IMG/VR virus record: IMGVR_UViG_3300033153_007005
Span: 1-39,309 of that record
Length of the DNA stretch: 39,309 nucleotides
Origin: a virus
Reading direction: 5' to 3' (one strand)
The notes beneath the pieces were generated by a model. It saw only the letters and a list, made by a program, of their open reading frames with translations, did not search any database and had not been told where the DNA came from. Position numbers and translations under genes: made by a program. The first letter of the stretch is position 1. Every line of letters starts with the position of its first letter. Shown here piece by piece: positions 2,863 to 28,757 of the stretch.

Positions 2863-5021
2863 AATTATATATCAGCCCCAATTACGGCAGCCGTCCTGAT
2901 AAAGCGGATGGTGGAATACGCCGTGTCGTTGAAGCGCAGAAAAGGCATCTCCCAAAATTCGGGATTGAAATAGTCGATTATCCAGATCAGGCCGACCTTA
3001 TCAATAATCACGGTGCGTCTTTGGTATCTGTGCCGGGGATACCCAGCGTGAATAGCTGTCACGGATTTATGTGGTCTAAATACGACTGGGGTTCTTGGGC
3101 GCACGAGATCAATCGGGCGGTGGTCAGGTCTATGCAGCACGCCGTTGCTCACACAGCACCTTCAAAGTGGGTTGCAAAAGCCATGACGAGGGGAATGCTG
3201 GTCAATCCAGTTATAATTTATCATGGGGTTGATGCCGAGGATTGGAATCCGTTTTTGCATAAAGAGGACTATGTTCTTTGGAATAAAGCCAGGGTAGATA
3301 AGGTTTCAGATCCAGAAGACATGAATCAGGTTGCGAAAATGCTGCCGGGCGTGAAATTTCTTTCTACTGTTGGGGAGAAAGACAAAAACGTCCGCATTTC
3401 AGGAGTTATGCCTTATCCAGAAATGAAGGGATTGATAGAAACCGCTGGTGTTTATTTGGCTACCGCAAGAGAAACATTCGGGATCGGAACGCTTGAAGCA
3501 ATGGCCGCCGGAGTTCCCGTAGTGGGTTGGGATTGGGGTGGACAATCGGAAATTATCATTCACGAAGAAACCGGGTATTTGGCCGAACCCGGCGACTTTA
3601 AAGACCTTGCCCGTGGTATTGAATATTGCCTTGCCAATAAAGAAGAAATGGGGTTGAATGCCAGGGCAGACATTGAAAAGCGGTGGGGCTGGGAAGATAA
3701 GATTGAAAAATACGCAGAGGTTTTCCGGGAGGTATATGATGAATACAAACAAGATCGTCCGAAAGTTAGTATTATTCTTACCACATATAACCTTAACCGT
3801 TATCTCCCTGACGCTCTCTCATCGGTTCAGAAACAAACCGAGGAAAGCTGGGAGTGCGTTGTTGTTGATGATTGCGGCACAGATAATGCTTTTGACATTT
3901 TTCAATTGTTCGGAAAAGAGGATAGTCGCTTCAAATATTTTCGCCCCGACAAGAACCTGGGATTGTCACTCGCAAGAAACTTCGGGGTATCCAAGTCTAA
4001 AGGTCAGTATCTCATAATGCTGGATGCCGATGATATGCTGGAAAAAAATGCCTTAAAAATTTTGTCCGGCGAGTTGGATAAAGATTGGGGCATAGACATA
4101 GCCTATGGGCACCTGGACACCTTTACAGACAACGATCCGACCCCAAAGCGGAACGACTGGCCACTGGAAAAGTTTGATTGGCGACAGCAAATGGCTCACT
4201 TGAATCAATTGCCCTACTCTGCCATGATGCGGAGAGAGGTCTTTGAGCGGTCTGGTGGTTATCGGAAGCGGCATTGGAGGGCAGAGGACGCAGCTTTCTG
4301 GTGCAGGGTTTCATCGTTTGGATTTGTTATAAAGAAAGTCACCCAGGCTTCTACTCTTTTATACAGAATGCGTGGCGACAGCAAATCAAATCACGAACCA
4401 GGCGACGGCGATTGGACAGCCTGGTATCCCTGGAGGCTGGCCGGAAACCCACGAGAGGGAATGAAGAGGATCAAGGACGGTTATAAAATCCCCGAATATT
4501 TGGTTCCCTGGGGCGCGCCACACGAAAGAACAGTTGGTAGATTTTGGGATATTCCCGATTATGCCAGCCCGTTTGTGTCCGTAATTATTCCGGTTGGGCC
4601 AGGACACGAAGACGTTGTAATAGACGCTTTGGAAAGTTTGGTTGCGCAGAACTACCTGAATTGGGAAGCGATTGTTGTCAATGATACAGGAAAGCATTTT
4701 GAATTAAAACACGCTCCGTATGCAAGGTTTGTAGACACGCATCATATTGAGGGCATGGGCCCGGCTTATGCTAGGAATCTTGGTGCCGAACATGCCAGAG
4801 GCGAAGTCTTGTTGTGGCTGGACGCCGATGATTATTTGATGCCAGATGCGCTTCAGAAAATGGTCGATGTTTATAAAAAAGAAGGGCCGTGCGTTGTTTA
4901 TACTGACTGGCTGAAAAACGAGGGCGACACGTCAAAGCCAATGAGTTATTTTGAAACCGAGGAGTTTGTTTGCGGATCTGTGCTGAATAAACTTCGGCAC
5001 AGTGTAACCTGCCTGGTTTGA
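2859..5021 (+). CDS. multidomain glycosyltransferase GT4-GT2-GT2, frame broken near its end
   Basis: The 720-residue frame holds three transferase domains. Residues 1-300 are GT4 (GT-B fold), with YHGVD near 120 and TFGIGTLEAMAAGVP near 206-220, the E-x7-E-type donor site. Residues about 302-560 are a first GT2 (GT-A fold), opening PKVSIILTTYN and carrying LMLDADDM as the DxD site. From about 569 there is a second GT2, opening PFVSVIIPV and carrying LWLDADDY. The second GT2 stops early at TGA 5019-5021, after HSVTCLV. Its missing end, DEDISGWEDWDYYIAL, is encoded immediately downstream in the +1 frame. The protein probably builds an oligosaccharide stepwise. Confidence 0.88.
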   Translation: MKLYISPNYGSRPDKADGGIRRVVEAQKRHLPKFGIEIVDYPDQADLINNHGASLVSVPGIPSVNSCHGFMWSKYDWGSWAHEINRAVVRSMQHAVAHTAPSKWVAKAMTRGMLVNPVIIYHGVDAEDWNPFLHKEDYVLWNKARVDKVSDPEDMNQVAKMLPGVKFLSTVGEKDKNVRISGVMPYPEMKGLIETAGVYLATARETFGIGTLEAMAAGVPVVGWDWGGQSEIIIHEETGYLAEPGDFKDLARGIEYCLANKEEMGLNARADIEKRWGWEDKIEKYAEVFREVYDEYKQDRPKVSIILTTYNLNRYLPDALSSVQKQTEESWECVVVDDCGTDNAFDIFQLFGKEDSRFKYFRPDKNLGLSLARNFGVSKSKGQYLIMLDADDMLEKNALKILSGELDKDWGIDIAYGHLDTFTDNDPTPKRNDWPLEKFDWRQQMAHLNQLPYSAMMRREVFERSGGYRKRHWRAEDAAFWCRVSSFGFVIKKVTQASTLLYRMRGDSKSNHEPGDGDWTAWYPWRLAGNPREGMKRIKDGYKIPEYLVPWGAPHERTVGRFWDIPDYASPFVSVIIPVGPGHEDVVIDALESLVAQNYLNWEAIVVNDTGKHFELKHAPYARFVDTHHIEGMGPAYARNLGAEHARGEVLLWLDADDYLMPDALQKMVDVYKKEGPCVVYTDWLKNEGDTSKPMSYFETEEFVCGSVLNKLRHSVTCLV

Positions 5022-5223
5022 CGAAGACATATCTGGCTGGGAAGACTGGGATTACTACATTGCCCTTCAAGATCATGGGCTGTGTAGTGTTCGGGTTCCA
5101 GAAGCGTTGTTTGTTTACCGCTTTTACGGCGGAGATCGCAGAGAAGAATCTTTCGATATGCGAAAAGATTTGTTACAATATGTTAGAAATAAGTGGAGTG
5201 AATATTATCAGGAGGAGGAAGAA
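5020..5223 (+). other. out-of-frame continuation of the second GT2 domain
   Basis: In the +1 frame relative to the glycosyltransferase, the sequence reads on from GAC at 5020 as DEDISGWEDWDYYIAL, then RVPEALFVYRFYGG. This is the usual C-terminal part of a GT2 domain (the ED/W motif and a final helix). No stop interrupts this frame before 5796, so it runs straight into the frame of the next gene, whose own ATG is at 5224. This is seen directly. Whether it is made by +1 frameshifting at GTT TGA C, is a decayed end, or reflects a one-base assembly error cannot be decided here. Confidence 0.7.
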
Positions 5224-5796
5224 ATGCCTTGTGGCGGATGCAAAGGAAGCAAAACAAGAAAAGATCGGAACGTAAAGGCGGTTGATCAGACGATTGCCCC
5301 GAATACTTCAAAGGTTATCAACGGTTATGAAATGGTCATTATGGAATACATTGGCAAGCCACATGGCCCTTTTAGGGTAAACGGGTTGGGGCCGACCAAT
5401 GCTAGGTACAAATTCGGAAAAACGCAATCGGCGAAATTCAGCTATGTTTATCCCCACGATGTTCAGCATCTTTTGGCAAAGCGAAATCAAGATGGCTCTC
5501 CGTGGTTCAAGGTTGTTGAGCCGGAGCCGATTGAGGAAAAGGTAAAACCAGAGGACTTTGTTGGGCAGGAAATTGAGCCACCGCCTCTGCCAAAGCCAGA
5601 GCCTGAACCCCAGGAAGTGTTTGTTTTTGATGTTCAAATGAAAGATTTAACAGTCAAAGAGCTGGACGACATTTTATTGGATAAAAAATATCACAGGCTG
5701 GAAATTCTGGGCGCTTTGGTTGAGCAAGAAATTAATGGGAAGAATAGAAAGACAGCCCTGAAAAAACTGAGGGATGCAATAGGTGAATTATCTTGA
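5224..5796 (+). CDS. Cys-motif phage structural-region protein with Pro-rich linker
   Basis: The start at ATG 5224 is set by a strong AGGAGGAGG ribosome-binding site at 5210-5219. The 190-residue product begins MPCGGCKGSK, a CxxC motif typical of small phage proteins beside head-tail joining genes. It continues with a GYEMVIMEYIGKPHGPFRV domain and a GxTxxRYKFGK-like strand region. A Pro/Glu-rich linker follows (EPPPLPKPEPEP), then a C-terminal helical domain with MKDLTVKELDDILL that resembles small Rho-N/HeH-like modules. Probably a virion or head-completion protein, judged by position. The same frame is open upstream into the glycosyltransferase tail. Confidence 0.6.
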   Translation: MPCGGCKGSKTRKDRNVKAVDQTIAPNTSKVINGYEMVIMEYIGKPHGPFRVNGLGPTNARYKFGKTQSAKFSYVYPHDVQHLLAKRNQDGSPWFKVVEPEPIEEKVKPEDFVGQEIEPPPLPKPEPEPQEVFVFDVQMKDLTVKELDDILLDKKYHRLEILGALVEQEINGKNRKTALKKLRDAIGELS

Positions 5797-6067
5797 TATA
5801 CTAATACTGGGATTGGCAACCTGGCGAATATCACACATGGTTGTATGGGAAGATGGCCCGTTTGACATTTTTCAAAAAATTGTCACCTTTACGGAAAAGT
5901 GGCGATTTACGAAAAGTTTGTTTTCGTGCGTCTGGTGCCTGTCGGTGTGGATAGGTGCAATTCTGGCTTTATCTGCTATAATAGATAAGACGGTAACCGT
6001 ATATCTAATGTTACCTTTCGCTTTAAGTGCTGTCGCAATTTTATTGGAGCAAATAACAGATGGCTAG
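5783..6067 (+). CDS. DUF1360-type membrane protein
   Basis: This 94-residue product starts at GTG 5783 inside the end of the previous gene. It has an N-terminal hydrophobic segment (LDILILGLATWRISHM), a WEDGPFDIFQKI motif, the conserved CVWCLSVWIGAILAL segment and a last hydrophobic helix. This pattern matches the DUF1360 family, small integral membrane proteins frequently found in phage genomes and of unknown function. The CxWC motif could bind a metal or form a disulfide. The stop overlaps the next start. Confidence 0.8.
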   Translation: MNYLDILILGLATWRISHMVVWEDGPFDIFQKIVTFTEKWRFTKSLFSCVWCLSVWIGAILALSAIIDKTVTVYLMLPFALSAVAILLEQITDG

Positions 6068-7271
6068 AGCAGAAACAAAAACCTGGTTGTCGCTTGATAG
6101 ATGGGCGGAAATAGTTGGCATAAATCCCCTTCACTTTAATCAACTGGCCTCGACAGAATTTCCCGATTTGTGTGGTCAGCCGTGGTATCAATATGATTGG
6201 CAAGACGCAGATCGTGTTGGGCGGGAAGCAATTGCAATCGCAATACGCTCGGCGGAACGGCGAATAGCAAAATATGTTGGATATAACTTGCTTCCAGATT
6301 GGCACAACGAGATCGTTCCGGTTCCACGTCCGGCATCCCCAGAACTTTTCGGAAAGGCTGTAAACCCGCGATATGCGCGGAAATCTGTCAAAGCCACGAA
6401 AGGTTATCTTATTTCTGGTGGCGTGAAGGCAAGCTCGTTGATTGAAGCCGGACTTGCTATTGTCAGATCAGATGCTGATGGTGACGGGTATAATGAGCTT
6501 TGCACCGTAACGGTGACAACTGATGTAGATGACTGTGAAATTCATCTTTATTATCCGGGCGAAAATGGGGCAGATATTTGGGAAATCAGACCCATTACGA
6601 TTTCCAGTTCTGGTGGAATTGCTACAATTACATTCAAGTCCTGGCAGGTTGTAGATCCAGACAAGACGCAAGGTCTTGACCCCAGCCCATTGACGGCTGA
6701 AACAGACAGCAACTATATCACCACTGTCGATGCCTACCGGGTATATAACGATCCGCAAACCCAGGCAACTTTTATGTGGGAAGACTTACCGGACGCCTGC
6801 GATTGTGGAAGCGAAACTTGTGAGACCTGCGCATGGTCTACACAAACAGGATGTTTACAGGTCAGGAATGACCGTCTGGGATATTTCACATTCAATCCTG
6901 CCACCTGGGATACTGACAATGAAAAGTTTACTCAATCAGAATTTTCTGTCGCCAGGGAGCCAGACAAGATCAGGCTTTATTATTATTCTGGTTGGCGAGA
7001 TCAAGACATAATCTGTCCGGCAGTAAACATGGACAGAGAACTTGAAAGAGCGATAGCGCATTTCGCTGCCACATTGCTTGACAGAGATATGTGTGCCTGT
7101 AATAATGTTCAGTATTACTTAGATTATTGGCGTGAGGATCTGGCGAGGGTAGGGGCAGACGTAACCTATCAAAACTCACCACATATACTTAGCAACCCGT
7201 TTGGGACTATGCGTGGAGCGGTTTACGCCTATAATGTTTGCAATGATAACCAGAGGAAAATAGGGCAATGA
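6060..7271 (+). CDS. putative head-tail connector protein
   Basis: The 403-residue product starts at ATG 6060, overlapping the previous stop. Near residues 55-75 it has AIAIAIRSAERRIAKYVGYNL, resembling the helical core of gp6-like head-tail adaptors. A second helical part near the end (MDRELERAIAHFAATLLDRDM) would pack against it. Between them are beta-rich insertions and a Cys cluster (CDCGSETCETCAWS, then CACNN) that may hold a metal ion or disulfides. Location just before the tail genes fits an adaptor at the portal-tail interface. Identification rests on weak motif likeness and gene order. Confidence 0.5.
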   Translation: MARAETKTWLSLDRWAEIVGINPLHFNQLASTEFPDLCGQPWYQYDWQDADRVGREAIAIAIRSAERRIAKYVGYNLLPDWHNEIVPVPRPASPELFGKAVNPRYARKSVKATKGYLISGGVKASSLIEAGLAIVRSDADGDGYNELCTVTVTTDVDDCEIHLYYPGENGADIWEIRPITISSSGGIATITFKSWQVVDPDKTQGLDPSPLTAETDSNYITTVDAYRVYNDPQTQATFMWEDLPDACDCGSETCETCAWSTQTGCLQVRNDRLGYFTFNPATWDTDNEKFTQSEFSVAREPDKIRLYYYSGWRDQDIICPAVNMDRELERAIAHFAATLLDRDMCACNNVQYYLDYWREDLARVGADVTYQNSPHILSNPFGTMRGAVYAYNVCNDNQRKIGQ

Positions 7272-7573
7272 AACAAATAGATCACGAAATAAACGGCAGA
7301 AAATATAAAATATTGCTGCCAACGGGATCGGAAAACCCCGATCTAGGAATTTTAGTCGGGCCGCCGAACTTTGTCGATGAACTGGGATTGCCAGAACCGT
7401 TTGCAACCAGGCTTCACAACCAAATGTTTAACAGAGGGCTTTTCACCCTGGCGGATGCACAAAAAAAGTCAAAAGAAATTCAGGCGGCCTTACAATCGGC
7501 ATTACGGGTCGATGCCGCCAGAATAATAGACGCTTACAATCAAGCGGAAAAGGAAACATTACCTTTTGAGTAA
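7268..7573 (+). CDS. small hypothetical protein between connector and tail tube genes
   Basis: The 101-residue product starts at an ATGA overlap with the connector stop. It opens with a short beta segment (HEINGRKYKILLPTGSE) and then seems mainly helical and charged (LADAQKKSKEIQAALQ...). No catalytic motif is visible. By position it could be a head completion, tail terminator or neck protein, but nothing in the sequence decides this. Confidence 0.6.
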   Translation: MKQIDHEINGRKYKILLPTGSENPDLGILVGPPNFVDELGLPEPFATRLHNQMFNRGLFTLADAQKKSKEIQAALQSALRVDAARIIDAYNQAEKETLPFE

Positions 7574-7584
7574 GGAGGTTTTTA

Positions 7585-9078
7585 ATGAGTACACCTAAAA
7601 TAACCCAAGCTGGTCAAACGAGAGTTTGGCTTTTGGAGAACGGCCCCGGCCCCGCCAGGGAGCCAAGGTATCAGGGAACTATGGCTGTAGGAGACGCAAG
7701 TTGGCCCGCAGGAGACATCACGCCTGTCAAGATCCCTGATCCAGATCACTTCAACAAGTTTCTTACTGCCGGTCACATTCGCGGCGCTGAAGAAAATCTT
7801 ACGATGCCAATTACTGCTAGGTATCCACAACAGGCTTCAACGTTGCTGGATCTCCGCAGGAAAATGTGTCGCGTAGACTTTCATGTGCCTTTAGGAAAAT
7901 GCACAAATCCCCAAATCTATTCCCGCTGGGAAAAGATGATGATTTACAGAGATGGTCGCATCACGAGCTGGGCCAATGAAAACGCTGGTGCATTGGACGA
8001 TGATGCCCAAGGCGTTATCAATGAAACCGGCGAATTTAGTTTCGAAGAGATGTATGAAGTCGTTCCGATGACACTTCAGGAGATTGCCGAGGCAAACGCT
8101 GTTCGGGAAATCGTGGATGTTAGTATATGTGACAGCCAGACCTGCGGCGATTGCGAAGATGAAAGCGACGGTTCAAGCAAAGTGTTTGTAACCATGATCG
8201 GAGAGGGCGCAACGCCGGGAACCCCACCTTCGGTGATCTATTCTGCTGACGGCGGATCGACTTGGGCGGCAACTGACATCGACACCGCTTTTTCGAACGA
8301 GAATCCGACCGACGGCGAATGTGTTCGGGAGTATTATGTTGTCACCGTTAATGGTAGTAATTCTGTCCATTATGCTAACAAAGAAGACATTTTGAGCGGC
8401 GCAGAAACCTGGTACGAGGTTACCACTGGATTTGTGGCCGGGAATGGGCCTAATGCTATTTTTGCTCAAAGCGGAATGGATGTTTGGGTTGTTGGCGACA
8501 ACGGTTATATCTATCACGCAACTGATATAACTTCTGAAGTAACGGTTTCCGATGCGGGTTTGGCAACGACACAGAATCTTCTGGATGTTCACGCCGTTGA
8601 TAGCGAAAACATTCTGGCGGTTGGTGAACTTAACGCTGTTGTTCTATCACAGAACGGCGGAGACACCTGGCAGGTGCTTACAGGCCCGGCGGTCGGCGAA
8701 TCTTTGAAGGCTTGCTGGATGCGTGACGAAGACACCTTCTTTGTTGGAACGAATACTGGCAAGTTGTATTACTCCAACGATGCCGGGGATAGCTGGACAG
8801 AAAAATCACTTCCGGGAAGCATTGACAATATCGACAGTATCAAGTTTTATGACGATACCGTTGGTTACATTGCTGGCAGGAGTGGTGGGTCTGGTTATAT
8901 CCTTCGCACAACTGACGGTGGATATAGTTGGTATGTTATGCCACAAAATGCCGTGGCAATTCCTGCCAATGATTATGTGAACGACATAGCGGTAAGTGGG
9001 TTCAACCCCAACTTCTTGATCGGCGGCGGTTTAGCAGATGATGGGTCGGCGGGATTCGTTGTACTTGCTGAAGGATAA
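7585..9078 (+). CDS. tail tube protein with C-terminal Asp-box (BNR) propeller-like domain
   Basis: A clear AAGGAGG site precedes ATG 7585. Residues 1-about 185 have the make-up of a phage tail tube protein. After a Cys-rich hinge (CDSQTCGDCED), the remaining ~300 residues carry repeated Asp boxes of the S-x-D-G-G-x-T-W type: SADGGSTW, SQNGGDTW, SNDAGDSW and TTDGGYSW. These are spaced as in sialidase/Ycf48-like beta-propellers. Such a domain would decorate the outside of each tail tube ring and could bind sugars or cell surfaces. At 497 residues it is far longer than a plain tube protein. No sialidase arginine triad is evident, so catalysis is not claimed. Confidence 0.75.
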   Translation: MSTPKITQAGQTRVWLLENGPGPAREPRYQGTMAVGDASWPAGDITPVKIPDPDHFNKFLTAGHIRGAEENLTMPITARYPQQASTLLDLRRKMCRVDFHVPLGKCTNPQIYSRWEKMMIYRDGRITSWANENAGALDDDAQGVINETGEFSFEEMYEVVPMTLQEIAEANAVREIVDVSICDSQTCGDCEDESDGSSKVFVTMIGEGATPGTPPSVIYSADGGSTWAATDIDTAFSNENPTDGECVREYYVVTVNGSNSVHYANKEDILSGAETWYEVTTGFVAGNGPNAIFAQSGMDVWVVGDNGYIYHATDITSEVTVSDAGLATTQNLLDVHAVDSENILAVGELNAVVLSQNGGDTWQVLTGPAVGESLKACWMRDEDTFFVGTNTGKLYYSNDAGDSWTEKSLPGSIDNIDSIKFYDDTVGYIAGRSGGSGYILRTTDGGYSWYVMPQNAVAIPANDYVNDIAVSGFNPNFLIGGGLADDGSAGFVVLAEG

Positions 9079-9102
9079 GAAAACTAAACAAAGGAGCAAG
9101 AG

Positions 9103-9660
9103 ATGAGCGAGAAAAAAATCAATCTGCCAGAGCAGGGTTCGGCTCAAATGGTGGACAAATTGTTAGAAACTGAAAAGGATGTCATTGAGTTATCTTCAGG
9201 CGTAGTCCTGAAAATCAAAGACAAGATACGCCCGTCTATAATTATTGACATCCTTTCAGACGTTGAAGACAAAAGACCCGAACCGCCAACGGTTTATGTC
9301 GAAGCAATTGGTCGGGAAGAAGTAAATTTGGACGATCCCGGATATATCGACAGAGTAAATCGGTGGGAAACGGTTAGTGCTGGTCGAATTGCAGATGCCC
9401 TTATTCTTTTGGGAACAGAGATCGAATCTATCCCAAAGGGTTTGGAAAAGCCAGAAGATAGCGGCTGGATTGACATGGTTGAAACTCTTGGTTTCAGATT
9501 GAACAGAAGGTCGGACTCCGCCCGGTATCTTGCCTGGGTCAAGCACGTAGCGATTGAAGATCAGGATGATTGGACAAAGATCACAGAAGCGGTTGGCCGA
9601 AAGGCTGGCGTGACGGAGGCCGATGTGCAACGGGCACAGAACTCCTTTCCGTCTCCGTAA
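9103..9660 (+). CDS. tail assembly chaperone, first frame (gpG-like)
   Basis: Starts at ATG 9103 after AAAGGAGCAAGAG. The 185-residue, acidic product sits between the tail tube and tape measure genes, where lambda gpG and its functional analogues lie. A second frame (9623-9904) begins inside its 3' end, in the +1 (or -2) register. This is the usual arrangement in which ribosomal frameshifting yields a small amount of a G-T fusion that chaperones the tape measure protein. Frame 1 ends ...FPSP at TAA 9658-9660. No catalytic motif is seen or expected. Confidence 0.7.
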   Translation: MSEKKINLPEQGSAQMVDKLLETEKDVIELSSGVVLKIKDKIRPSIIIDILSDVEDKRPEPPTVYVEAIGREEVNLDDPGYIDRVNRWETVSAGRIADALILLGTEIESIPKGLEKPEDSGWIDMVETLGFRLNRRSDSARYLAWVKHVAIEDQDDWTKITEAVGRKAGVTEADVQRAQNSFPSP

Positions 9661-9904
9661 GCACGGTACGGATCTAGCTGAGGCATATGTGCCTCCTACG
9701 CTTGGGGACAAACTGAACATTACAGCAAGGGCATTGTTGCCCGGCATGATTACATACCACGAAGAACATTTTGTTCGCACGAAGGCAGGATACAAACTGG
9801 ACGAGTGGTATGATCTGGCGCCACAAGAAAGGGCATTGGAAGTAGCAATCAGGCGTATTGAGTCCCTGGTTGAAAGGCATATAGCGGAGGCAAGTAAAGG
9901 GTGA
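9623..9904 (+). CDS. tail assembly chaperone, second frame (gpT-like)
   Basis: The frame is open from 9614 and reads KHGTDLAEAYVPPTLGD, then LLPGMITYHEEHFV and QERALEVAIRRIESLV. This helical make-up is common in the second chaperone segment of siphoviruses. It could be made as a fusion to the first frame by +1 (or -2) frameshifting somewhere between 9614 and 9660, for instance at CCG TAA G (9655-9661). Alternatively it could start on its own at ATG 9623, where a GGAGG at 9615-9619 lies only three bases upstream, closer than usual. It ends by overlapping the tape measure start. Confidence 0.65.
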   Translation: MCNGHRTPFRLRKHGTDLAEAYVPPTLGDKLNITARALLPGMITYHEEHFVRTKAGYKLDEWYDLAPQERALEVAIRRIESLVERHIAEASKG

Positions 9905-11922: not shown

Positions 11923-11923
11923 T

Positions 11924-20477: not shown

Positions 20478-20553
20478 GGCAATTGAAATGACCGATGCGA
20501 TTGTTGATCGCTTAGCTGAAGAGAGTAGTGGAAGAACTGGACAGGAGAGAGCG

Positions 20554-21003: not shown

Positions 21004-21299
21004 ACAGAAAGTCAACGCTGAAGATACTAGGTTACGAACACAAAATTATTTTTTTGGACAAAGAAGCGTCAGGGGATGATGCGGGATGGTTTAACAGATA
21101 TTACCAGTCTATAACCCTTGACAAAGGACAATCGTGGGAGCAACAACAAAGCACACTGATTCACGAAATAATTGAGGCTATCAATTCTCATCTGGATTTA
21201 GGCTTATCGCATCAACAGATAAGCGCTTTAGAGATTGGCGTGTATTCATTTATCAGGGATAATGGGGTTGATATTACCTTTTTATTACAGGAGCGATGA
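21000..21299 (+). CDS. phage protein with HExxE metallopeptidase-like motif
   Basis: The 99-residue product starts in an ATGA overlap. It contains QSTLIHEIIEAINSHLDLGL, in which HEIIEAIN resembles a zinc metallopeptidase helix with the second His replaced. A helix SALEIGVYSFIRDNG ends the protein. Proteins of this small type are common in phage early regions; whether they bind zinc or cut anything is unknown. It lies in a run of coupled small genes. Confidence 0.6.
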   Translation: MNRKSTLKILGYEHKIIFLDKEASGDDAGWFNRYYQSITLDKGQSWEQQQSTLIHEIIEAINSHLDLGLSHQQISALEIGVYSFIRDNGVDITFLLQER

Positions 21300-21337
21300 G
21301 AAATTATATTGAGACGCTGATTAGAAAGGAGGGAGTG

Positions 21338-21667
21338 ATGGGTTGGAAATACAAAAGAGAAAAAGTCTACTACACCTTAAGGCCAATCACAATTAGAGTG
21401 CCGATGTTTATTTGGAATATAAAATGGTGGCTAATAAAAAGACGCCGGAAAAAGGCTCAAAAGATTACAGACGCTATTGACGAGAAACACCTCACCGCCT
21501 ATGAGGGAGAGAAATGTGTCTGGACGAGATGTGATGATGATTGGGCTAACGAACTATGGAGTACTTCATGTGGTCAAGAGTTCAACCTCAAAGACGGGTA
21601 TACACCAGCCGACAACGGAATGAAATATTGTTGTTTTTGCGGGAAATCTCTTGGGGAGGGTGAGTGA
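21338..21667 (+). CDS. zinc-ribbon small protein (copy 1)
   Basis: ATG 21338 follows AAGGAGGGAGTG, a strong site; an in-frame ATG at 21296 overlaps the previous stop and is the alternative start. The N-terminal third is basic with an aromatic hydrophobic stretch (VPMFIWNIKWWLIKRRRKK), possibly membrane-anchored. The C-terminal ~50 residues form a zinc ribbon: EGEKCVWTRC, then STSCGQEFNLKDGY and MKYCCFCGKSL. This half is almost identical, at DNA level too, to the gene at 38.7-39.0 kb on the other strand. Function unknown. Confidence 0.65.
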   Translation: MGWKYKREKVYYTLRPITIRVPMFIWNIKWWLIKRRRKKAQKITDAIDEKHLTAYEGEKCVWTRCDDDWANELWSTSCGQEFNLKDGYTPADNGMKYCCFCGKSLGEGE

Positions 21668-21669
21668 TG
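21503..21669 (+). repeat. dispersed inverted repeat, copy A (zinc-ribbon cassette)
   Basis: About 165 bases, beginning at GAGGGAGAGAAATG and running to the next gene start, match the complement of 38690-38850 with only scattered differences, mostly silent. The two copies lie in opposite orientation 17 kb apart, so recent duplication or exchange is likely. Confidence 0.8.
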
Positions 21670-22014
21670 AACGATAACACACAAGCGATACTGGATAAGT
21701 TTGAGAAATTTTTATTTGAGGAGTTTTATGATTATGTGACAAAGTGCAATATGCTTGAAAATTTAGAACAAATTCTCACCGCCCACGAGGAGGACTGGAT
21801 TAGTGTTGATGATAGATTACCGGAAAAATATAAGAAGGTGTTGTGTTTTGGCAATAAACCAATAACAACAAGGGGGGTGCTTGGTTTTCATCCAATGTGG
21901 CACATAGCAAGTTATGATGGCTCTAAGTTCCCACACCCAAACCGTAACGGGGGAATATTGGATTACATCACCCACTGGCAACCACTCCCCACCCCCCCAA
22001 AGGAAGGCGAATAA
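21667..22014 (+). CDS. DUF551-like small protein
   Basis: Starts at ATG 21667 in a TGATG overlap. The 115-residue product opens MNDNTQAIL, as does a minus-strand paralogue at 37.4-37.6 kb. It then has EDWISVDDRLPEKYKKVLCF and ITHWQPLPTPPKEGE, the W-x-S...LP...VL...HW-x-PLP-x-PP pattern of DUF551 proteins. DUF551 proteins are short phage and prophage products of unknown function. The final codons carry the AAGGAAGG site used by the next small gene. Confidence 0.7.
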   Translation: MNDNTQAILDKFEKFLFEEFYDYVTKCNMLENLEQILTAHEEDWISVDDRLPEKYKKVLCFGNKPITTRGVLGFHPMWHIASYDGSKFPHPNRNGGILDYITHWQPLPTPPKEGE

Positions 22015-22172
22015 TGGATGATTACGGAGGATATGAACTGTATTATTATGATCAGCTTATCGAGGAAAATTACATAGAATATGGCGAATGGCTAGACATG
22101 TTAGACGCAGATCGGGAAGCTATCCGCCAATTAGAAGAGGAAGAAGAAAGCGAAACAGATGACAGCCATTAA
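22014..22172 (+). CDS. small acidic protein
   Basis: ATG 22014 is preceded by AAAGGAAGGCGAATA at good spacing. The 52-residue product is Tyr-rich at the start (DDYGGYELYYYDQL) and strongly acidic at the end (LEEEEESETDD). No family recognised. Placement directly behind a coupled gene run and the strong ribosome-binding site support a real gene; a DNA-mimic or antirestriction role would be pure speculation. Confidence 0.55.
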   Translation: MDDYGGYELYYYDQLIEENYIEYGEWLDMLDADREAIRQLEEEEESETDDSH

Positions 22173-22330
22173 TTATTTGCAGGCTGGGATTATATGTTCG
22201 GGGTCAAACCCGCCAGCCCCATTATCCTGCTGGGGTCGCCAGCGGCAGGAGAGAAAAACAAAATCAGATACGGTATTTCCGTAATGGGTGAGTAAATTGT
22301 ACTGGCGACACTTTTACAAAGGAGAAAGAG
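22173..22330 (+). promoter_or_regulatory. structured leader region before the gene at 22331
   Basis: The 158 bases hold no gene. GGCTGG (22182-22187) can pair with CCAGCC (22213-22218). GCTGG (22229-22233) forms a tight hairpin with CCAGC (22239-22243) around GGTCG. The end carries an AAAGGAGAAAGAG ribosome-binding site. The stems could be an RNA control element; no riboswitch class is recognised. Confidence 0.35.
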
Positions 22331-22687
22331 ATGAAACTATCACAAAAACACAGACAAAAATATCCTGAAGTTTTTATTTTTCACGACAGAAACCGGATGT
22401 GGAATGGGCACGCTAGTGTTCTTGCCGGAGGCCAGTGTACGATTTACCTGATGCTGGAAGGGGGTGTGGCGGTTGTAGGACAGGCCCAATGCGTTGAGAA
22501 AGATCAATACTCGAAAAAAATCGGGAGATCAATAGCCTACGGCAGAGCATTAAGGGCTGTAAGGTTGTTAAGTAACGCAGAAATGGTCGATAGAGTAAAC
22601 AAGGCGGTGAGAAGCAAAGTAGGCAAAATAAATCCGGGTATTTTTCGGAAAGCATATTTAGGAAGAACTGGGCAAGAAATTAGATAA
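22331..22687 (+). CDS. conserved phage-type hypothetical protein
   Basis: The 118-residue product follows a strong AAAGGAG site. It has a beta-rich first half (FIFHDRNRMWNGHASVLAGG) and a motif common in short phage proteins, AQCVEKDQYSKKIGRSIAYG, followed by a basic helical end. The KKIGRSIAxGRAL segment recurs in phage early proteins of unknown role. No catalytic residues are evident. Confidence 0.65.
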   Translation: MKLSQKHRQKYPEVFIFHDRNRMWNGHASVLAGGQCTIYLMLEGGVAVVGQAQCVEKDQYSKKIGRSIAYGRALRAVRLLSNAEMVDRVNKAVRSKVGKINPGIFRKAYLGRTGQEIR

Positions 22688-22696
22688 GGAGGAACT

Positions 22697-22909
22697 ATGA
22701 ATGATTGGCTAATTGGCATACTTGGTGGTATTGCAGCACTAACGCTAAAAGAAAGCTGGGAACTTGCTTGTTGGTTGTGGGCGAACAAAGCCTACTATGA
22801 TAATAAACATATTCCTGATTATCTATATATACCCTATAAAAACCGTACAGGAAATTACTTCTATTTTAAATATAGACTAAAAGAAAATGAAAGGATGCCT
22901 AAACTATAA
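22697..22909 (+). CDS. small membrane-anchored hypothetical protein
   Basis: The 70-residue product has one N-terminal hydrophobic segment (WLIGILGGIAALTL) and a Tyr/Lys-rich remainder (YLYIPYKNRTGNYFYF). A GGAGG site precedes the ATG. It is A+T-richer than its neighbours, as is the next gene. Both may be a recently acquired pair; their stop and start share a base (TAATG). Confidence 0.6.
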   Translation: MNDWLIGILGGIAALTLKESWELACWLWANKAYYDNKHIPDYLYIPYKNRTGNYFYFKYRLKENERMPKL

Positions 22910-23517
22910 TGAAAAAACTAATTATAACCTTACTGATTGTTGTTGGTATGCTTGGGATAATAGGCAATGAAGTAAAAGCTGGAGAGTATGAACCATTAAA
23001 GCTTTGCCCTAAAACCGGCTATTGGTTTAGTTATGCTTTTCCTCAAGAAACTAGCACCAATACTTTCATTAATATTGCTTGGTTAAATAGAACGTGGGTT
23101 TTACACGAGCCTTGGACAAAAGATGAGTATTATTTAGAGCAGGTTCTTACCTGGGATTTTTTGTATTATGAAGAAATTGGTTACTGTGTTACTCTTAGTA
23201 ATGGAACAACACAACATTTTGATACAATGCCGTCGTCTTATTATAATTGTGACATTGGATGTATCACAGAAGTTATGACTTATATATCTAATCCACAACC
23301 TGACTGGACACCGACACCAGAACCTACACCAACACCCACGCCAAAGCCAACACCTACGCCAAAGCCAACACCCACGCCAAAGCCCAAGCCATATTTGCTT
23401 TACACCAGTATGTTTGAAAGAGGCGATCTTTGTTATTATACGATTGACACGGGATCGGTTCTACGCAGAAAGTGTTTCTCGTTAGAGGAAGCAGGAATTT
23501 TGGGTGGCGTCAATTAG
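22909..23517 (+). CDS. secreted protein with Thr-Pro-Lys repeat linker
   Basis: The 202-residue product has a typical signal peptide (MKKLIITLLIVVGMLGIIG, Ala-Gly cleavage region VKAGEY). It has a ~110-residue domain with several Cys, a TPTPKP repeat linker (about 30 residues of TPTPTPKPTP pattern), and a short C-terminal domain with Cys. It is probably exported and linked by an extended spacer, as in surface-exposed or cell-wall proteins. The gene is A+T-rich and looks foreign to the replication operon. No enzymatic motif recognised. Confidence 0.65.
   Translation: MKKLIITLLIVVGMLGIIGNEVKAGEYEPLKLCPKTGYWFSYAFPQETSTNTFINIAWLNRTWVLHEPWTKDEYYLEQVLTWDFLYYEEIGYCVTLSNGTTQHFDTMPSSYYNCDIGCITEVMTYISNPQPDWTPTPEPTPTPTPKPTPTPKPTPTPKPKPYLLYTSMFERGDLCYYTIDTGSVLRRKCFSLEEAGILGGVN
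23338..23388 (+). repeat. tandem Thr-Pro-Lys codon repeats
   Basis: An ACGCCAAAGCCAACACC-like unit is repeated about three times, encoding the TPKPTP linker. Such repeats expand and contract by slippage. Confidence 0.7.
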
Positions 23518-23588
23518 CAAGAATGTTTGATATTGGACACACAACTGTTAGCAACATTATTAATAGAAAAACACGGAGGCATATATGA
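23463..23588 (+). pseudogene. remnant of an HNH homing endonuclease C-terminus
   Basis: In a frame different from the secreted-protein gene, the sequence reads GWRQLARMFDIGHTTVSNII, then NRKTRRHI and a TGA overlapping the SSB start. This is the characteristic helix-turn-helix tail of phage HNH endonucleases, comparable to QLARKYNVTQANIW...WWHI at the end of the intact gene at 20.4 kb. No nuclease core is left upstream. The remnant's last codons now supply the GGAGG site of SSB. Confidence 0.65.
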
Positions 23589-23998
23589 GTTATCAAAAAT
23601 TAATGATTGTCGGCAACCTGGGCAGAGATCCAGAGATGCGCTATCTTCCCAGCGGGCAGGCTATAACGGACATGTCTGTTGCGACCAATCGGGTTTATAC
23701 AGATTCCAGTGGACAAAAAATAACAGAAACCACATGGTTTCGAGTATCGGTTTGGGGCGGAAGGGCCGAAACCTGCAATCAATACCTGAAGAAAGGAAGC
23801 AAGGTTTTGATCGAGGGGTATCTTCGGCCAGATCCAGAAACAGGCGGGCCGAGGATCTGGAATCGCAATGATGGCACACCCGCCGCCAGCTTTGAGATGA
23901 CAGGGACAAATGTTGTTTTCTTGTCCTCGAAATTGGAAAACCAGGGCGGTGCAGGTTATCATCGTCCGCCAGCCGATAAAGACGACGTACCTTTCTAA
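23585..23998 (+). CDS. ssb: single-stranded DNA-binding protein
   Basis: The 137-residue product is a bacterial-type SSB. An OB fold opens with QKLMIVGNLGRDPEMRYLPS and continues through TTWFRVSVWGGRAETCNQYL and KKGSKVLIEGYLRPD. The C-terminal acidic tip DKDDVPF is the docking site for replication and repair partners. Standard length for the phage form, with a shortened linker. It stabilises single strands in phage replication and works with the ERF annealing protein and DnaB encoded nearby. Confidence 0.95.
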   Translation: MSYQKLMIVGNLGRDPEMRYLPSGQAITDMSVATNRVYTDSSGQKITETTWFRVSVWGGRAETCNQYLKKGSKVLIEGYLRPDPETGGPRIWNRNDGTPAASFEMTGTNVVFLSSKLENQGGAGYHRPPADKDDVPF

Positions 23999-24008
23999 GG
24001 AGCAGTTT

Positions 24009-24398
24009 ATGGAAACGATCCAGGATCTGATTTTGGAAATGATGGAGAATTTGGAAAAGCTTGAAATTACGAAGTTGGAAGTTCTCCAAAGAAAAAGGGA
24101 GCTGGAGGATTCGGTGATGACCGATGAAATCAAACAGCAACTCCAAAGCATTGAGGCGGAGTTTGCGCCTGAACTGGAACGCCTGGAAACGCTGATAGCC
24201 AATGCGGAAAAGGGAATCAAAGACAGGTGTGTTGAACTGGGCAAAACCGTCACCGGCCCAACCATGCGTGTGACCTTCAACAAAAGCAGGGTATCTTGGG
24301 ACTCCAAGGCGCTGGAGGGTTATGCCCATGCGCATCCAGAAATCCTGAAAATGAGGAAAATCGGAAAGCCCTACGCAAGCTTACGAACCCTAAAATAA
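24009..24398 (+). CDS. coiled-coil phage protein, Gam-like
   Basis: AAGGAG before ATG 24009 selects this start. The 129-residue product begins with ~80 residues of charged coiled coil (LEKLEITKLEVLQRKRELED). The C-terminal part has KTVTGPTMRVTFNKSRVSWD and ALEGYAHAHPEILKMRKIGK. This arrangement is usual in phage proteins labelled host-nuclease inhibitor Gam-like, though the similarity to Mu/lambda Gam is loose. A role protecting DNA ends beside SSB and ERF is plausible but inferred. A related minus-strand gene lies at 31 kb. Confidence 0.55.
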   Translation: METIQDLILEMMENLEKLEITKLEVLQRKRELEDSVMTDEIKQQLQSIEAEFAPELERLETLIANAEKGIKDRCVELGKTVTGPTMRVTFNKSRVSWDSKALEGYAHAHPEILKMRKIGKPYASLRTLK

Positions 24399-24406
24399 TC
24401 ACCGCT

Positions 24407-24443
24407 ACCCATGGGGCATCGCAAGATCGGATGCCCTATGGGT
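24407..24443 (+). other. strong 14-bp hairpin before the replication promoter
   Basis: ACCCATGGGGCATC (24407-24420) pairs with GATGCCCTATGGGT (24430-24443) over a nine-base loop, with a single G-T wobble. No T-run follows on either side, so it is not a standard terminator. It could be a transcript-end stabiliser, an attenuating structure or a protein-binding cruciform. Confidence 0.75.
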
Positions 24444-24448
24444 GCTAA

Positions 24449-24477
24449 TTGACATCCCAAAAAATCGGGGTTAGAAT
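24449..24477 (+). promoter_or_regulatory. sigma-70 promoter for the replication genes
   Basis: TTGACA at 24449-24454, a 17-base spacer, and TAGAAT at 24472-24477 (five of six). The start point would be near 24485, giving a ~55-base leader before ATG 24540 with its AGGAG site. Confidence 0.75.
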
Positions 24478-24539
24478 ATTTATCCCAACGTGTTTGCGCA
24501 AAAACATTCCGGTGCAATTGTATTAACCAGGAGAAAACG

Positions 24540-25247
24540 ATGCAGCGCTATATTTTCAGGAACAAAGTCGAAGAAAATTTCACCGTCTTAAGAAATAGTT
24601 GTATAAGAGACAAAAAACTCACCTGGGAGGCCAGGGGAGTTCTTCACTATCTTTTAAGTATGCCTGAAGATTGGCAAACGTCCAAGGCGGATCTTATCGC
24701 TCAATCGCCTTCAGCTGGAGATAAAGTCATCAGCCGGATTTTCAAAGAACTTGAAACGGTGGGATATATTTTCAGGAAAAAGAAACGAGATAAAAAAGGT
24801 CGCTGGACATGGATCACTTTTGTATGCGACCTTCCGGCATTCCGGGAGGAACTTATGGACGAAGAAATGAGAAAAACTAAAGCAATTAAAGAAAACGCCA
24901 AACCGTCAGTAACCAAGGAAGACCTGACAAAAGCAGTAGCCGGGATAGGCAAAAGTGACCCCACAGAGGGTTATCCGGTGCATGTCAAGGATTTACTCAA
25001 CGAGTTTATAAAAGTGTCGCAGATCAAGCCTACAAAGCGTAGGAAGTCGGACTGGATAGACACGGCAAACGAATGGCGTGAAATGGGGGTAAAGCCAGGG
25101 GATGTTCAAAAAATGTACCGCCACGCAGTTGAGGGGGGCTGGGATATTTCAAGGCCGGGTTCGATCACGTCCGCCTATTATCCCATGAAGAATAAGGCAA
25201 GGGCCGAAAAACTTGTCAATGACAAGGGGTTCAGGGTGGCAAAATGA
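24540..25247 (+). CDS. replication initiator-like winged-helix protein
   Basis: The 235-residue product starts with a winged-helix DNA-binding domain of the phage replisome-organiser kind (KKLTWEARGVLHYLLSMPED; SKADLIAQSPSAGDKVISRI). A charged linker follows, and then a helical C-terminal domain (SDWIDTANEWREMGVKPGDV) that resembles helicase-loader/DnaD-like regions. It overlaps the DnaB gene start (ATGA), the normal pairing of initiator/loader with helicase. It likely recognises the phage origin and loads DnaB. Confidence 0.7.
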   Translation: MQRYIFRNKVEENFTVLRNSCIRDKKLTWEARGVLHYLLSMPEDWQTSKADLIAQSPSAGDKVISRIFKELETVGYIFRKKKRDKKGRWTWITFVCDLPAFREELMDEEMRKTKAIKENAKPSVTKEDLTKAVAGIGKSDPTEGYPVHVKDLLNEFIKVSQIKPTKRRKSDWIDTANEWREMGVKPGDVQKMYRHAVEGGWDISRPGSITSAYYPMKNKARAEKLVNDKGFRVAK

Positions 25248-26629
25248 CCGATCCTAAAGCCGTACCGCATTCCAAAGAGGCTGAAGAAGCGGTGGTCGGG
25301 GCGGTGATGATTAACCCCGATGCCCTACATATCGAGGTTTCTTTTTTGAAGCCAGAAGATTTTTATATCCACAGAAACCGCTGGATATGGGAGGCATATC
25401 TTAGATTACACTCGCAAGGTATCGCAATAGATTATGTTACTGTATCTGAAGAGCTGGGAAAAATGGGGCATCTAAAGGACATCGGGGGGGCGGCTTATTT
25501 GACCAAACTGATGAACAGTTGCCCGTCATCGCTACATGCTGAATCCTACGCTGTCCGCGTTCAGGAAACGGCAATCAGAAGGCACATGATTGCCAATGCC
25601 AACCAGGAAGCTAGAGACGCCTACGATGAGAAAAAGCCGCTGGACGAATCTGTTGCCGAGGCGGTAACCAGACTGGGAAATTTGTTTCGGGTCAAAGACA
25701 CAGCCCGGTCTATGAGAGATGCCGCGATGGATGTTATGGATATAATCCTGGAAAGGGTCAATCTTAGACATTTGGGAGAAACTGTCACGTTGGGGTTTTT
25801 GACAGGGGTTGAATATATAGACCGCAACATAAAGGGGTTGAAAAAGGGCTGGCTGGTGATGTTTGCCGGGAAGCCGAAAGTTGGCAAGTCCAGGCTGGTT
25901 GCGCAGATAGCCAATGTTCTGGCATCGCAAGCGCCGGGTATTTATATCTCGTTGGAAATGGACGAAGAATCTATGGTCTACCGCCTTTTGAGCACGATGA
26001 CGGGAGTTGATCCAACAAAAATAGAGACTGGCGATGTCGATGCAACGGCGGTGGTCAAAGCGGCCGAGAACATAAACCCCAACCTGGGATTGTGGTGTAC
26101 CCCGCATTTGACAGATCAATTGCTCCGCTCATTTCTGGCGAAACGCAAAGCAGAAAAGGGGATAGGCTGGGCGATTGTGGATTATGTTGATCTGATGGTT
26201 CCGTCGGAAACAAGACGAAATGAAACCGAGGAGGATAAAGAGATTTGGAACGGGCTAAAGAAGATCGCTTTGGAACTGGACATTTTGCTGATCGGGATTG
26301 AATCGGTAAACAAACTGGCCGCTGACGGAGTGATGACCGATGACAAAGTGGTTGGTTCCTACGGCAAAATTCATGCAGTTGATGTAGCCTTTGGTTACAG
26401 TCCTTATCATGCCCTTCCCTACAAAGGCTGTCCAGAAATAGAAGACCCTGACAGGGAACGCAGATGTCGGGTGTTGAATGTTATGGCCGATAGACACCGT
26501 GAATGCGGCGGAATTGTCATGCCCCTGGAAATGAGAAACAACACGATTAACGATCTCTGGAAAGGCGATGAGGACGCGGGCGATGAGAACGCGACCGAGG
26601 ACGAAGGGGGCAACTGGTGGGACAACTAA
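25244..26629 (+). CDS. dnaB: replicative DNA helicase, DnaB family
   Basis: The 461-residue product has the DnaB N-terminal domain (SKEAEEAVVGAVMINPDAL). Its RecA-like motor carries Walker A GKPKVGKS near residues 209-216, Walker B WAIVDYVDL near 309-317, and a signature GIYISLEMDEESMVYRLL in between. The glycine usually following the first Walker A residue is replaced, and the domain is slightly diverged from bacterial DnaB. It unwinds the fork in phage replication. Its acidic tail (DEDAGDENATEDEGG) overlaps the methyltransferase start. Confidence 0.93.
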   Translation: MTDPKAVPHSKEAEEAVVGAVMINPDALHIEVSFLKPEDFYIHRNRWIWEAYLRLHSQGIAIDYVTVSEELGKMGHLKDIGGAAYLTKLMNSCPSSLHAESYAVRVQETAIRRHMIANANQEARDAYDEKKPLDESVAEAVTRLGNLFRVKDTARSMRDAAMDVMDIILERVNLRHLGETVTLGFLTGVEYIDRNIKGLKKGWLVMFAGKPKVGKSRLVAQIANVLASQAPGIYISLEMDEESMVYRLLSTMTGVDPTKIETGDVDATAVVKAAENINPNLGLWCTPHLTDQLLRSFLAKRKAEKGIGWAIVDYVDLMVPSETRRNETEEDKEIWNGLKKIALELDILLIGIESVNKLAADGVMTDDKVVGSYGKIHAVDVAFGYSPYHALPYKGCPEIEDPDRERRCRVLNVMADRHRECGGIVMPLEMRNNTINDLWKGDEDAGDENATEDEGGNWWDN

Positions 26630-27714
26630 AATATATCGAACTGTTTGCCGGAATTGGAGGATTTAGACATGGGCTTGAAGCCTGTAATAATAGATACCAA
26701 ACAGGAGGGGAATCCGAGAATCTATCAGGACGAAAGCCCGGCGCTACTGAATACACTATACAAGGAGCCACCTTTAGTTGCGTTTACGCAAACGAATGGG
26801 ACGGGTACGCAGCAGGTATTTACAGGAGGCACTATGGAGAAATCGACACCAGAGACATTACAACCGTCAATGTTTCCGAAATCCCAGAACATGATTTGCT
26901 CACGGCTGGATTCCCTTGTCAGGCGTTTAGCGTTGCGGGAAAAGGGCTTGGATTCGAGGACACACGAGGCACACTCTTTTTTGAAATCGCTAGGATTTGT
27001 GAGCGAAAAAGACCCAGACATGTTTTGCTTGAAAATGTTAAGGGTCTGCTTAGTCACGAAGAAGGAAAAACTTTCCAGACAATTCTTGGGGTTCTTGCCG
27101 ACCTGGGGTATCGAGTTGAATGGATGGTACTTAACAGCAAGCACTTTGGAGTTCCCCAAAACAGGGAAAGGGTGTTCATTGTTGGACATCTTAGAGGAGA
27201 ATGTCGAGGAGAAGTATTTCCTCTCCGAGGAAAAAACGAGGGCGCTGGTGGGCAAATTGTCAGTACAGCCATTGACGGAAACTACGGGAAGGGCATTGAC
27301 AATCACGGACAAAGAACAATGATCCAGATAACCGACCCCGGAACTATGCAGGGTTACCGGGTATATGATCCTGAAGGAGTTAGCTCAACTATTGCGGGAA
27401 ATGCCGGAGGGGTCGGAGCAAAAACAGGGTTGTATGCGGTGAAGGATGAAGCAAGAATCCGAAGGCTAACGCCAACTGAGTGTGAGCGGTTACAGGCATT
27501 CCCCGATGGCTGGACAAAGTGGGGATTACTCGAAGACGGAATGGAAATCGAAATATCAGACACCCAAAGATATAAGTGTTTGGGCAATGCTGTAACAACT
27601 TCGGTCATCACAGCAATAGGGCAAAAACTCTTAGAACATATTGGAGAAGATGAGTGTGCAACAACAAGTCGCAAAAATCTAAATCAAGGAGGTTCGGATG
27701 CTAGTAAATGCTAA
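26617..27714 (+). CDS. DNA (cytosine-5) methyltransferase
   Basis: GTG start at 26617, within the DnaB 3' end. The 365-residue enzyme has motif I (YIELFAGIGGFRHGLE), motif IV with catalytic Cys near 104 (LTAGFPCQAFSVAGKG), motif VI (LLENVKGLL), motif VIII (FGVPQNRERVFIVG) and motifs IX-X (RLTPTECERLQAFPDGW, YKCLGNAV). It methylates cytosine in a short DNA target, probably guarding phage DNA from host restriction. An insert of about 28 residues after motif I (near residues 24-52) is unusual. The +1 frame over this insert and over a later stretch also reads like methyltransferase sequence. Confidence 0.93.
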   Translation: MGQLKYIELFAGIGGFRHGLEACNNRYQTGGESENLSGRKPGATEYTIQGATFSCVYANEWDGYAAGIYRRHYGEIDTRDITTVNVSEIPEHDLLTAGFPCQAFSVAGKGLGFEDTRGTLFFEIARICERKRPRHVLLENVKGLLSHEEGKTFQTILGVLADLGYRVEWMVLNSKHFGVPQNRERVFIVGHLRGECRGEVFPLRGKNEGAGGQIVSTAIDGNYGKGIDNHGQRTMIQITDPGTMQGYRVYDPEGVSSTIAGNAGGVGAKTGLYAVKDEARIRRLTPTECERLQAFPDGWTKWGLLEDGMEIEISDTQRYKCLGNAVTTSVITAIGQKLLEHIGEDECATTSRKNLNQGGSDASKC

Positions 27715-27778
27715 TTCTTTACACATTCCGTTGGCGGATCAGTCAGTTCAGTGCGTTGTGACTTCTCCGCCTTATTGA
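27698..27778 (+). pseudogene. N-terminal piece of the frame-broken amino-methyltransferase
   Basis: A strong AGGAGG precedes ATG 27698. The 26 codons end VQCVVTSPPY at TGA 27776-27778. SPPY is catalytic motif IV of beta-class amino-methyltransferases, and the expected continuation, WGLRDYG, follows in the +1 frame. The piece is therefore the start of the gene at 27779-28757, separated by one base at TAT TGA T. Confidence 0.85.
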
Positions 27779-28757
27779 TTGGGGCCTGCGGGATTATGGC
27801 GTGGTCGGGCAACTTGGGCTAGAGCAAACGCCAGAAGCCTATGTTAAGAACATGGTTGCTGTGTTTCGGGAAGTCTGGAGGGTTCTTAGAGATGACGGAA
27901 CTTTGTGGCTGAATCTAGGAGATAGCTATATAGGCAATATGTCCAGAGCGAGCAATGGGGGAAGGGCCGGTTACGGAACACCACGAGAGGGAGTGTTTGA
28001 TCGTGGTGGAGAAGGACTGAAAAATAAAGACCTGGCGGGCATTCCCTGGCGAGTGGCGTTTGCATTACAGTCCGATGGCTGGTATCTTAGACAAGATATT
28101 ATTTGGCATAAGTCGAACCCAATGCCGGAGAGCGTAAAGGACAGATGCACCAAAAGCCATGAGTATATCTTTCTACTGACAAAGAATAAGAAATATTATT
28201 ATGATAATGAGGCGATCAAAGAAGAAAGCAGCGAAGCCGGTAAAATAATCTCTTTAGGAGAAAAGTCTTTTAGTAAAGGGCAAGCAAGGGGTGCAAACAA
28301 AAAGCCATCCGGCAATGCGCTCAATGATGAATACGAAGTCCCTAATAAACGCAATAGGCGCTCGGTCTGGACTATAACAACAAAACCGTACTCCGGCGCA
28401 CATTATGCTGTGTTCCCGCCAGAGATTCCAGGGATTTGTATAAAAGCCGGAAGCAAGGAGGGCGATATTGTTCTTGATCCGTTTGTGGGATCGGGAACAA
28501 CTGTAATGGTGGCTAGAAATCTCGGAAGGATTGGAGTTGGGTTAGACCTGAGTTTAGACTATTTGATTAAAAACGCCAGGGTTCGATTGGGACTGGACAA
28601 ATTGGATGCCTGGACAAATGGGGCCGGAAAGAAAGTGGAATCTGGTTTAGAGGGGCTGCCGATGTTTGGCGGAAATGGCGAGACACAGAAAGACCATAAA
28701 AACGTGCGCCGAAAAGATCCACACAGCATGCATAAAGCGAGGTTAAAAGACGGTTGA
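27779..28757 (+). CDS. DNA amino-methyltransferase (N4-cytosine/N6-adenine, beta class), frame-broken
   Basis: After the TGA the +1 frame reads DWGLRDYGVVGQLGLEQTPE, continuing through VFREVWRVLRDDGTLWLNLGD (after motif IV) and SDGWYLRQDIIWHKSNPMP. It has a target-recognition stretch with RNRRSVWTI and then motif I near the end, ILDPFVGSGTT-like (VLDPFVGSGTTVMVARNLG). Motif order IV then I marks the beta class; SPPY favours N4-cytosine. The only internal in-frame start before the conserved part is ATG 27801, which would lack motif IV and be inactive. Active enzyme needs +1 frameshifting at 27776 or a corrected sequence. Confidence 0.85.

Follow-up and report, generated by a model that had tools for sequence, protein, structure and literature searches.

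Why should a phage gene for a DNA methyltransferase be interrupted by a stop codon directly after its conserved SPPY motif, with the rest of the enzyme encoded intact behind it? The gene lies in an IMG/VR virus record of 39,309 bases (IMGVR_UViG_3300033153_007005; hereafter, the window), in which a four-nucleotide insert, TGAT, stands at 27776–27779. A preliminary description of this DNA had linked the TGA at 27776 with a second one at 5019, in an unrelated gene, as a shared +1 frameshift signal like that of the release factor 2 (RF2) gene. Its coordinates and codons are correct (GTT TGA C at 5016–5022 and TAT TGA T at 27773–27779, with the +1 frame open past both), but the common signal does not hold: the site at 5019 fits a deletion. 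For the methyltransferase, comparison with related genes leads us to favour slightly the reading that the TGA at 27776 is a functional recoding site that has been kept and at which the ribosome would hop over the stop (a stop-hop, or bypass) to make the canonical enzyme. The elements concerned, including the two open reading frames (ORFs) of the gene, are the following.

27698–28757, plus strand: N6/N4 DNA methyltransferase gene, interrupted by the stop insert (from translations, Pfam and 80 intact relatives)
27698–27778, plus strand: ORF1 of the split gene, ending ...VTSPPY-TGA
27780–28757, plus strand: ORF2 of the split gene, starting WGLRDYG... (Pfam N6_N4_Mtase, 3.5e-45)
27776–27779, plus strand: TGAT, the four-nucleotide stop-containing insert (the gap) between the Tyr of SPPY and the Trp of WGLRDYG (from comparison with relatives)
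27733–27738, plus strand: 5' arm of the hairpin, GGCGGA (from fold geometry and covariation in nine aligned same-register carriers of such inserts)
27766–27771, plus strand: 3' arm of the hairpin, TCCGCC, ending 5 nucleotides before the stop (from fold geometry and covariation)
27773–27775, plus strand: TAT (Tyr), putative take-off codon (from comparison of insert types)
27777–27779, plus strand: GAT, putative landing triplet (2/3 match to TAY) or Asp codon of the +1 frame (from comparison of insert types)

A family of stop inserts at one protein position

All 80 relatives that were fetched are uninterrupted (SPPY[WFY]GLRDY or a close variant) and lack the TGAT (80/80). A stop insert of this kind recurs in 29 other genes. 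The carriers come from scans of IMG/VR and GTDB and from the window itself. The scans covered first the interrupted form, for which IMG/VR unexpectedly returned 10 other contigs, then any 4-nucleotide insert, any 3-nucleotide insert, and inserts of 1–30 nucleotides after CCGCCNTAY, the last limited to CCG-CCN codons. Once duplicates, unrelated DNA and two single-T forms had been set aside, there were 30 distinct methyltransferases, that of the window among them, with 3–9 extra nucleotides exactly between SPPY(W) and [WFY]GLRDYG. In all 30 an in-frame stop directly follows SPPY or SPPYW, and the downstream frame resumes after the gap. The inserts are TGAY in 16 genes, TAG in four, TGGTAAA in three and TGAAGTAG in two; TAAC, TGGTGAA, TGGTAG, TGGTAGCCA and TGATTAG occur once each. 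All 16 TGA forms have a pyrimidine (C or T) as the next base, so that the +1 codon is always Asp. Inserts of 10–30 nucleotides were not found, though the scan admitted up to 30, and the 3-, 4- and 1–30-nucleotide scans of IMG/VR revealed no in-frame sense insertion at the SPPY/GLRDY junction.

Most inserts lie near codons 26–45. The carriers are mostly 35–60% identical to one another and scattered in the tree (in which comparator sampling is biased), and identical 7- and 8-mer inserts recur in divergent genes. One carrier, L117, is in a Verrucomicrobia genome assembly, and three carrier phages are each represented by two independent assemblies with an identical site. Because the same kind of stop insert is found in 29 other methyltransferases, chance is excluded for the site at 27776 on this comparison, and the earlier suggestion that it is a recoding site appears sound.

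Apart from L091, every carrier has a downstream frame that is open and free of a second lesion. L091 and L093 have a second in-frame TGA at a position that is Trp in the family (QEDG*WIRS), and no upstream hairpin; they may represent a decayed copy.

Whatever the insert type, the triplet that precedes the resume codon agrees at two or three positions with the codon before the stop. If these are taken as landing triplet and take-off codon, TAY is paired with GAY, AAC or TAG, and TGG with TGG or TGC. The match is perfect (TGG/TGG) in L123, L129, L131 and L134, and 2/3 in the window (TAT/GAT). L125 and L133 have TGC (Cys) as landing triplet in place of the family's aromatic residue (Trp), which is what one would expect of a triplet that is not decoded. 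Tandem duplication of AYTG was considered as the source of TGAY and rejected: it suits some Trp forms and fails before Phe or Tyr codons.

The two single-T forms (L132 and L135) are sister methyltransferases, 55% identical, with one extra T (TAC-TTT-CGG, that is, UUU_CGG); they have no hairpin upstream, and we regarded them as ordinary indels. Their UUU_CGG resembles the +1 shift site of influenza PA-X. A different break is seen near position 1899 of Microcystis phage Mwe-JY25 (L136), where the methyltransferase is annotated as two coding sequences, with a TGA just before LKPKDL.

An upstream hairpin and adjacent homing endonucleases

The 70 nucleotides 5' of the stop are strongly structured in carriers (mean z -2.95), unlike those of 81 intact relatives (-0.66). 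No RNA structure was found downstream of the stop in carriers, where six windows gave z of -0.3 to +0.4; structure is confined to the upstream side. The contrast persists when only synonymous codons are shuffled (mean z -2.10 vs -0.70, p 7e-6). The stem usually ends 5 nucleotides before the stop, and among nine aligned carriers of the 'PLA[DA]' subtype, the window included, eight share the outermost pair -43/-5. In these nine, 4 of 11 pairs have changed on both sides, a covariation score reached by 0 of 500 shuffles. In other subtypes the same 3' arm pairs with different upstream segments, which suggests that the hairpin evolved repeatedly rather than by descent. A 5' stem-loop of the kind associated with bypassing is a property of the group, and is modest in the window alone.

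By clustering of the flanking ORFs, 13 of the 30 carriers have a homing endonuclease, of the LAGLIDADG or HNH type, immediately upstream, as against 0 of 81 intact genes (Fisher 4e-9). These 13, and not the window, combine an adjacent endonuclease with a gene split at a conserved motif, the arrangement of a homing cassette. Pfam LAGLIDADG_1 matches L134, L101 and L100 (L101 and L100 with scores under the curated cut-off), and Pfam HNH matches L119, L126, L108 and L128 (the last just below it). The calls for L096–L098, L103 and L109 are based on motifs or on similarity to the Pfam-supported endonucleases; that of L121, a fragment, was called by eye. L101 has, besides its upstream endonuclease, an in-frame LAGLIDADG-like insertion in ORF2 between LAQ and GWYVRS, a second conserved motif.

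In six carriers a second methyltransferase N-terminus, ending around SPPY, lies 577–714 nucleotides upstream, beyond the endonuclease. The two N-terminal copies have 61–83% amino acid identity. Their codons differ at 68 of 102 identical residues, where 62 would be expected at saturation. As residues are shared while synonymous sites are saturated, the copy before the stop is, by this codon comparison, a sequence long kept as protein-coding. At five of the six loci the stop-bearing copy has the hairpin (z -2.5 to -6.3) and the other copy lacks it (z -0.8 to +1.1), the exception being L100. The two copies serve as an internal control, encoding nearly identical peptides, with structure only beside the stop.

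Candidate readings of the stop

In a stop-hop, translation of the window methyltransferase would start at 27698 and bring the ribosome to the Tyr codon TAT with TGA in the A site. The hairpin (27733–27771), re-forming behind the ribosome, would pull the messenger RNA (mRNA), and the peptidyl-transfer RNA (tRNA) would hop over the insert (4 nucleotides in the window, 3–9 in the family) and re-pair at a similar triplet. Translation would resume at WGLRDYG, or in other carriers at the family's next residue after the TAY or TGG take-off codons and the landing triplets given above, yielding the canonical enzyme with no added residue. A homing endonuclease would recognise the conserved DNA of SPPY-[WFY]GLRDYG, and the insert, by breaking the cleavage site, would protect its carrier. 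If an added residue is not tolerated at the motif, only an insert skipped by the ribosome could be kept, and the hop would keep the gene alive. We favour a translational reading, given inserts that are short, that without exception contain a stop, and that are placed just 3' of a coding-strand hairpin. The wider proposal, that these genes form a natural family of 3–9-nucleotide stop-hops, driven by a 5' hairpin motor and evolved repeatedly as immunity to homing cassettes while an unchanged phage methyltransferase is made, is one on which the sequence comparisons leave us evenly divided.

Several observations weigh against the stop-hop. Landing triplets other than those of the TGG/TGG type mostly match at only two of three positions, isolated phages had no such site in the searches made, and L091 and L100 have no hairpin. 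By our measure, T4 gene 60 itself has no unusual upstream z (-0.67; T4 record L139). The intact comparators were picked by similarity to the window, and frequencies are not population estimates. In the window, no homing endonuclease or second N-terminus adjoins the gene, a cytosine methyltransferase lying directly upstream. Its hairpin is modest (dinucleotide z about -1.9, matched by 8% of 70-nucleotide stretches) and not significant by itself under synonymous shuffling (z -1.04, 35/200); the assignment of the window to the family would rest on the shared site and the stem register.

It is possible, if unlikely, that the inserts instead inactivate the gene, being scars or guard marks of homing endonucleases in recent pseudogenes, with a hairpin that acts at the DNA level. 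The sporadic occurrence of carriers, their strong association with endonuclease genes and the presence of other methyltransferases in some carrier genomes are in its favour. However, random scars would not all be stops, and divergent genes have identical 7- and 8-mers; the downstream frames are open over hundreds of codons, the protein sequence of the second N-terminus has been conserved while its synonymous sites have become saturated, and structure is found only upstream of the stop.

We doubt, and rank after the pseudogene, a programmed +1 frameshift at TAY-TGA-Y, which would add Asp (Asn in the TAAC form) after SPPY, the TAG forms being read through. Shifts of this type are known from prfB and antizyme. 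The constant pyrimidine after TGA fits such a shift, and an upstream hairpin is able to stimulate +1 shifting (PMC5009743). Yet TAG (3 nucleotides), TGATTAG and TGAAGTAG cannot be decoded in this way, and a Tyr tRNA re-pairs poorly in the +1 frame (UAU to AUU). At 27776 the shift would leave an extra Asp encoded by no relative; except for TAG, no in-frame insertion of Asp or any other residue was found at this site in IMG/VR. The Asp that the preliminary description saw as the product is thus neither conserved nor obtainable by +1 shifting in all forms. The stop-hop is preferred over the +1 shift because it covers every insert form with a canonical product, and the shift covers only TGAY and TAAC. 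A coupling to RF2 levels, also proposed earlier, is unsupported, since carriers use TAG and TAA besides TGA, have no obvious Shine-Dalgarno-like element, and share a hairpin as their 5' element.

Termination followed by re-initiation, giving a split enzyme from ORF1 and ORF2, is very improbable: there is a GTG at 27801 in the window ORF2, but the junction has no conserved start codon, the split would run through the catalytic loop, and the hairpin and short insert lengths would be left unexplained. No suppressor tRNA was found in the carrier loci, and a group I or II intron is not supported, with no Rfam match and an insert size of 3–9 nucleotides. A sequencing or assembly error, such as the one-T overcall envisaged earlier, is hardly credible even for metagenomic contigs, as it would yield neither a 4-nucleotide insert, repeated in kind at 29 other loci and linked to a hairpin and endonucleases, nor a 32-nucleotide deletion, and for three carrier phages two assemblies agree exactly at the site.

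Other frames and neighbouring genes in the window

Three further features of the window bear on the remaining claims and on the surroundings of the split gene.

2859–5021, plus strand: glycosyltransferase gene ending at the TGA at 5019, with a deletion of about 32 nucleotides relative to its relatives; not part of the element
9103–9904, plus strand: pair of overlapping ORFs upstream of the tape measure gene, probably a tail assembly chaperone of the G/GT type; not part of the element
26617–27714, plus strand: C5-cytosine DNA methyltransferase gene overlapping the start of the split gene (Pfam DNA_methylase, 5.6e-78)

Intact and syntenic relatives of the glycosyltransferase are present in IMG/VR (L081–L083, 43–45% identical; L081 and L083 have the same sequence at this site). 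These read RHSVTCLV-AREDALAVGGF-DEDL...EDWEFY, and the window reads RHSVTCLV-TGA/C-DEDISGWEDWDYY. The window gene (2859–5796) is without the 11 residues AREDALAVGGF, the GGF element included, or about 32 nucleotides. The simplest reading of this alignment is a deletion, in a broken gene or at an assembly gap. Skipping one T at 5019 would join the frames and not return the missing residues. That such a skip restores the frame is true of both sites as arithmetic but not as biology, given four inserted nucleotides at one and some 32 missing at the other, and the resemblance between them may be a chance coincidence. A 10-bp hairpin (CTGTGCTGAA..TTCGGCACAG) just 5' of the TGA (z -2.54) is within the range of chance, 3.7% of all stretches being equally structured, and we claim nothing for it.

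The tail chaperone frame does continue in +1 past its stop, as described earlier, but as part of an ordinary overlapping gene pair. ORFs 9103–9660 and 9623–9904 overlap upstream of a tape measure match (PHROGs), and in L088 and L090, which are distant relatives, the +1 overlap recurs with other stops (TGA C vs TAA G in the window); by this layout it is the usual tail-chaperone arrangement. The window ORF1 is 26% identical to that of L088. In L088 (10323–11058) and L090, ORF1 ends in ACT TGA C, and the conserved overlap is +1 (or -2). A codon-usage scan of all stops in the window revealed no further gene broken by a +1 continuation; the remaining +1 openings resemble ordinary overlapping genes.

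Genes resembling C5-cytosine methyltransferases lie directly upstream of the split gene in the window (26617–27714) and in L123, L129 and L131. On its 3' side, the ORF at 29180–30220 has a weak PHROG match to an HNH endonuclease (6e-7) and no Pfam match.

Comparison with known recoding systems

To our knowledge, efficient ribosome bypassing has essentially one well-studied bacterial or phage case, T4 gene 60, and no report of a stop-insert site in methyltransferases was found among the searchable open-licence PMC papers. If the stop-hop reading is true, about 30 natural, comparable sites with varied gaps and stops would allow direct tests of the rules that govern take-off, hop length and landing, and bypassing would be tied to homing-endonuclease resistance as a general strategy. 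The carrier genes are likely annotated as pseudogenes or split genes.

The methyltransferase sites resemble the CTT TGA C of prfB (RF2) in their early stop, the TGA followed by a pyrimidine and the open +1 frame. Unlike prfB, the carriers and the window, as read by sequence, have TAY before the stop rather than a slippery P-site codon like CTT, no obvious Shine-Dalgarno stimulator, TAA and TAG variants, and a hairpin instead.

T4 gene 60 combines an endonuclease insertion, a protective insert, a stop after the take-off codon and a 5' stem-loop motor (PMC5009743). As in T4 gene 60/mobA, a homing endonuclease lies, in the six carriers with a second N-terminus, between the methyltransferase gene and its separated part, and the stop directly follows the putative take-off codon. 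The T4 insert is in the catalytic motif TDADHDG near codon 46, and the methyltransferase inserts are mostly at codons 26–45. In contrast, the T4 gap is 50 nucleotides, not 3–9, and its GGA/GGA match is perfect, where the methyltransferases mostly match at 2/3. T4 gene 60 is a different gene and needs a nascent-peptide signal; bypass is proven in T4 only.

The byp elements of Magnusiomyces mitochondria are many short bypassed inserts with imperfect take-off and landing matches (PMC5009743). The methyltransferase inserts are likewise short and imperfectly matched, but they are found in bacteriophage genes, at one fixed protein position, with a stop in the A site and an mRNA hairpin. In synthetic 'stop-hops', matched codons flank a stop, and Atkins and colleagues noted in their 2016 review that shorter-distance, matched-codon counterparts of bypassing had long been presumed to exist (PMC5009743). 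The TGG-TAG-TGG of L134 has exactly the synthetic stop-hop form; those were laboratory constructs, and the methyltransferase sites are natural.

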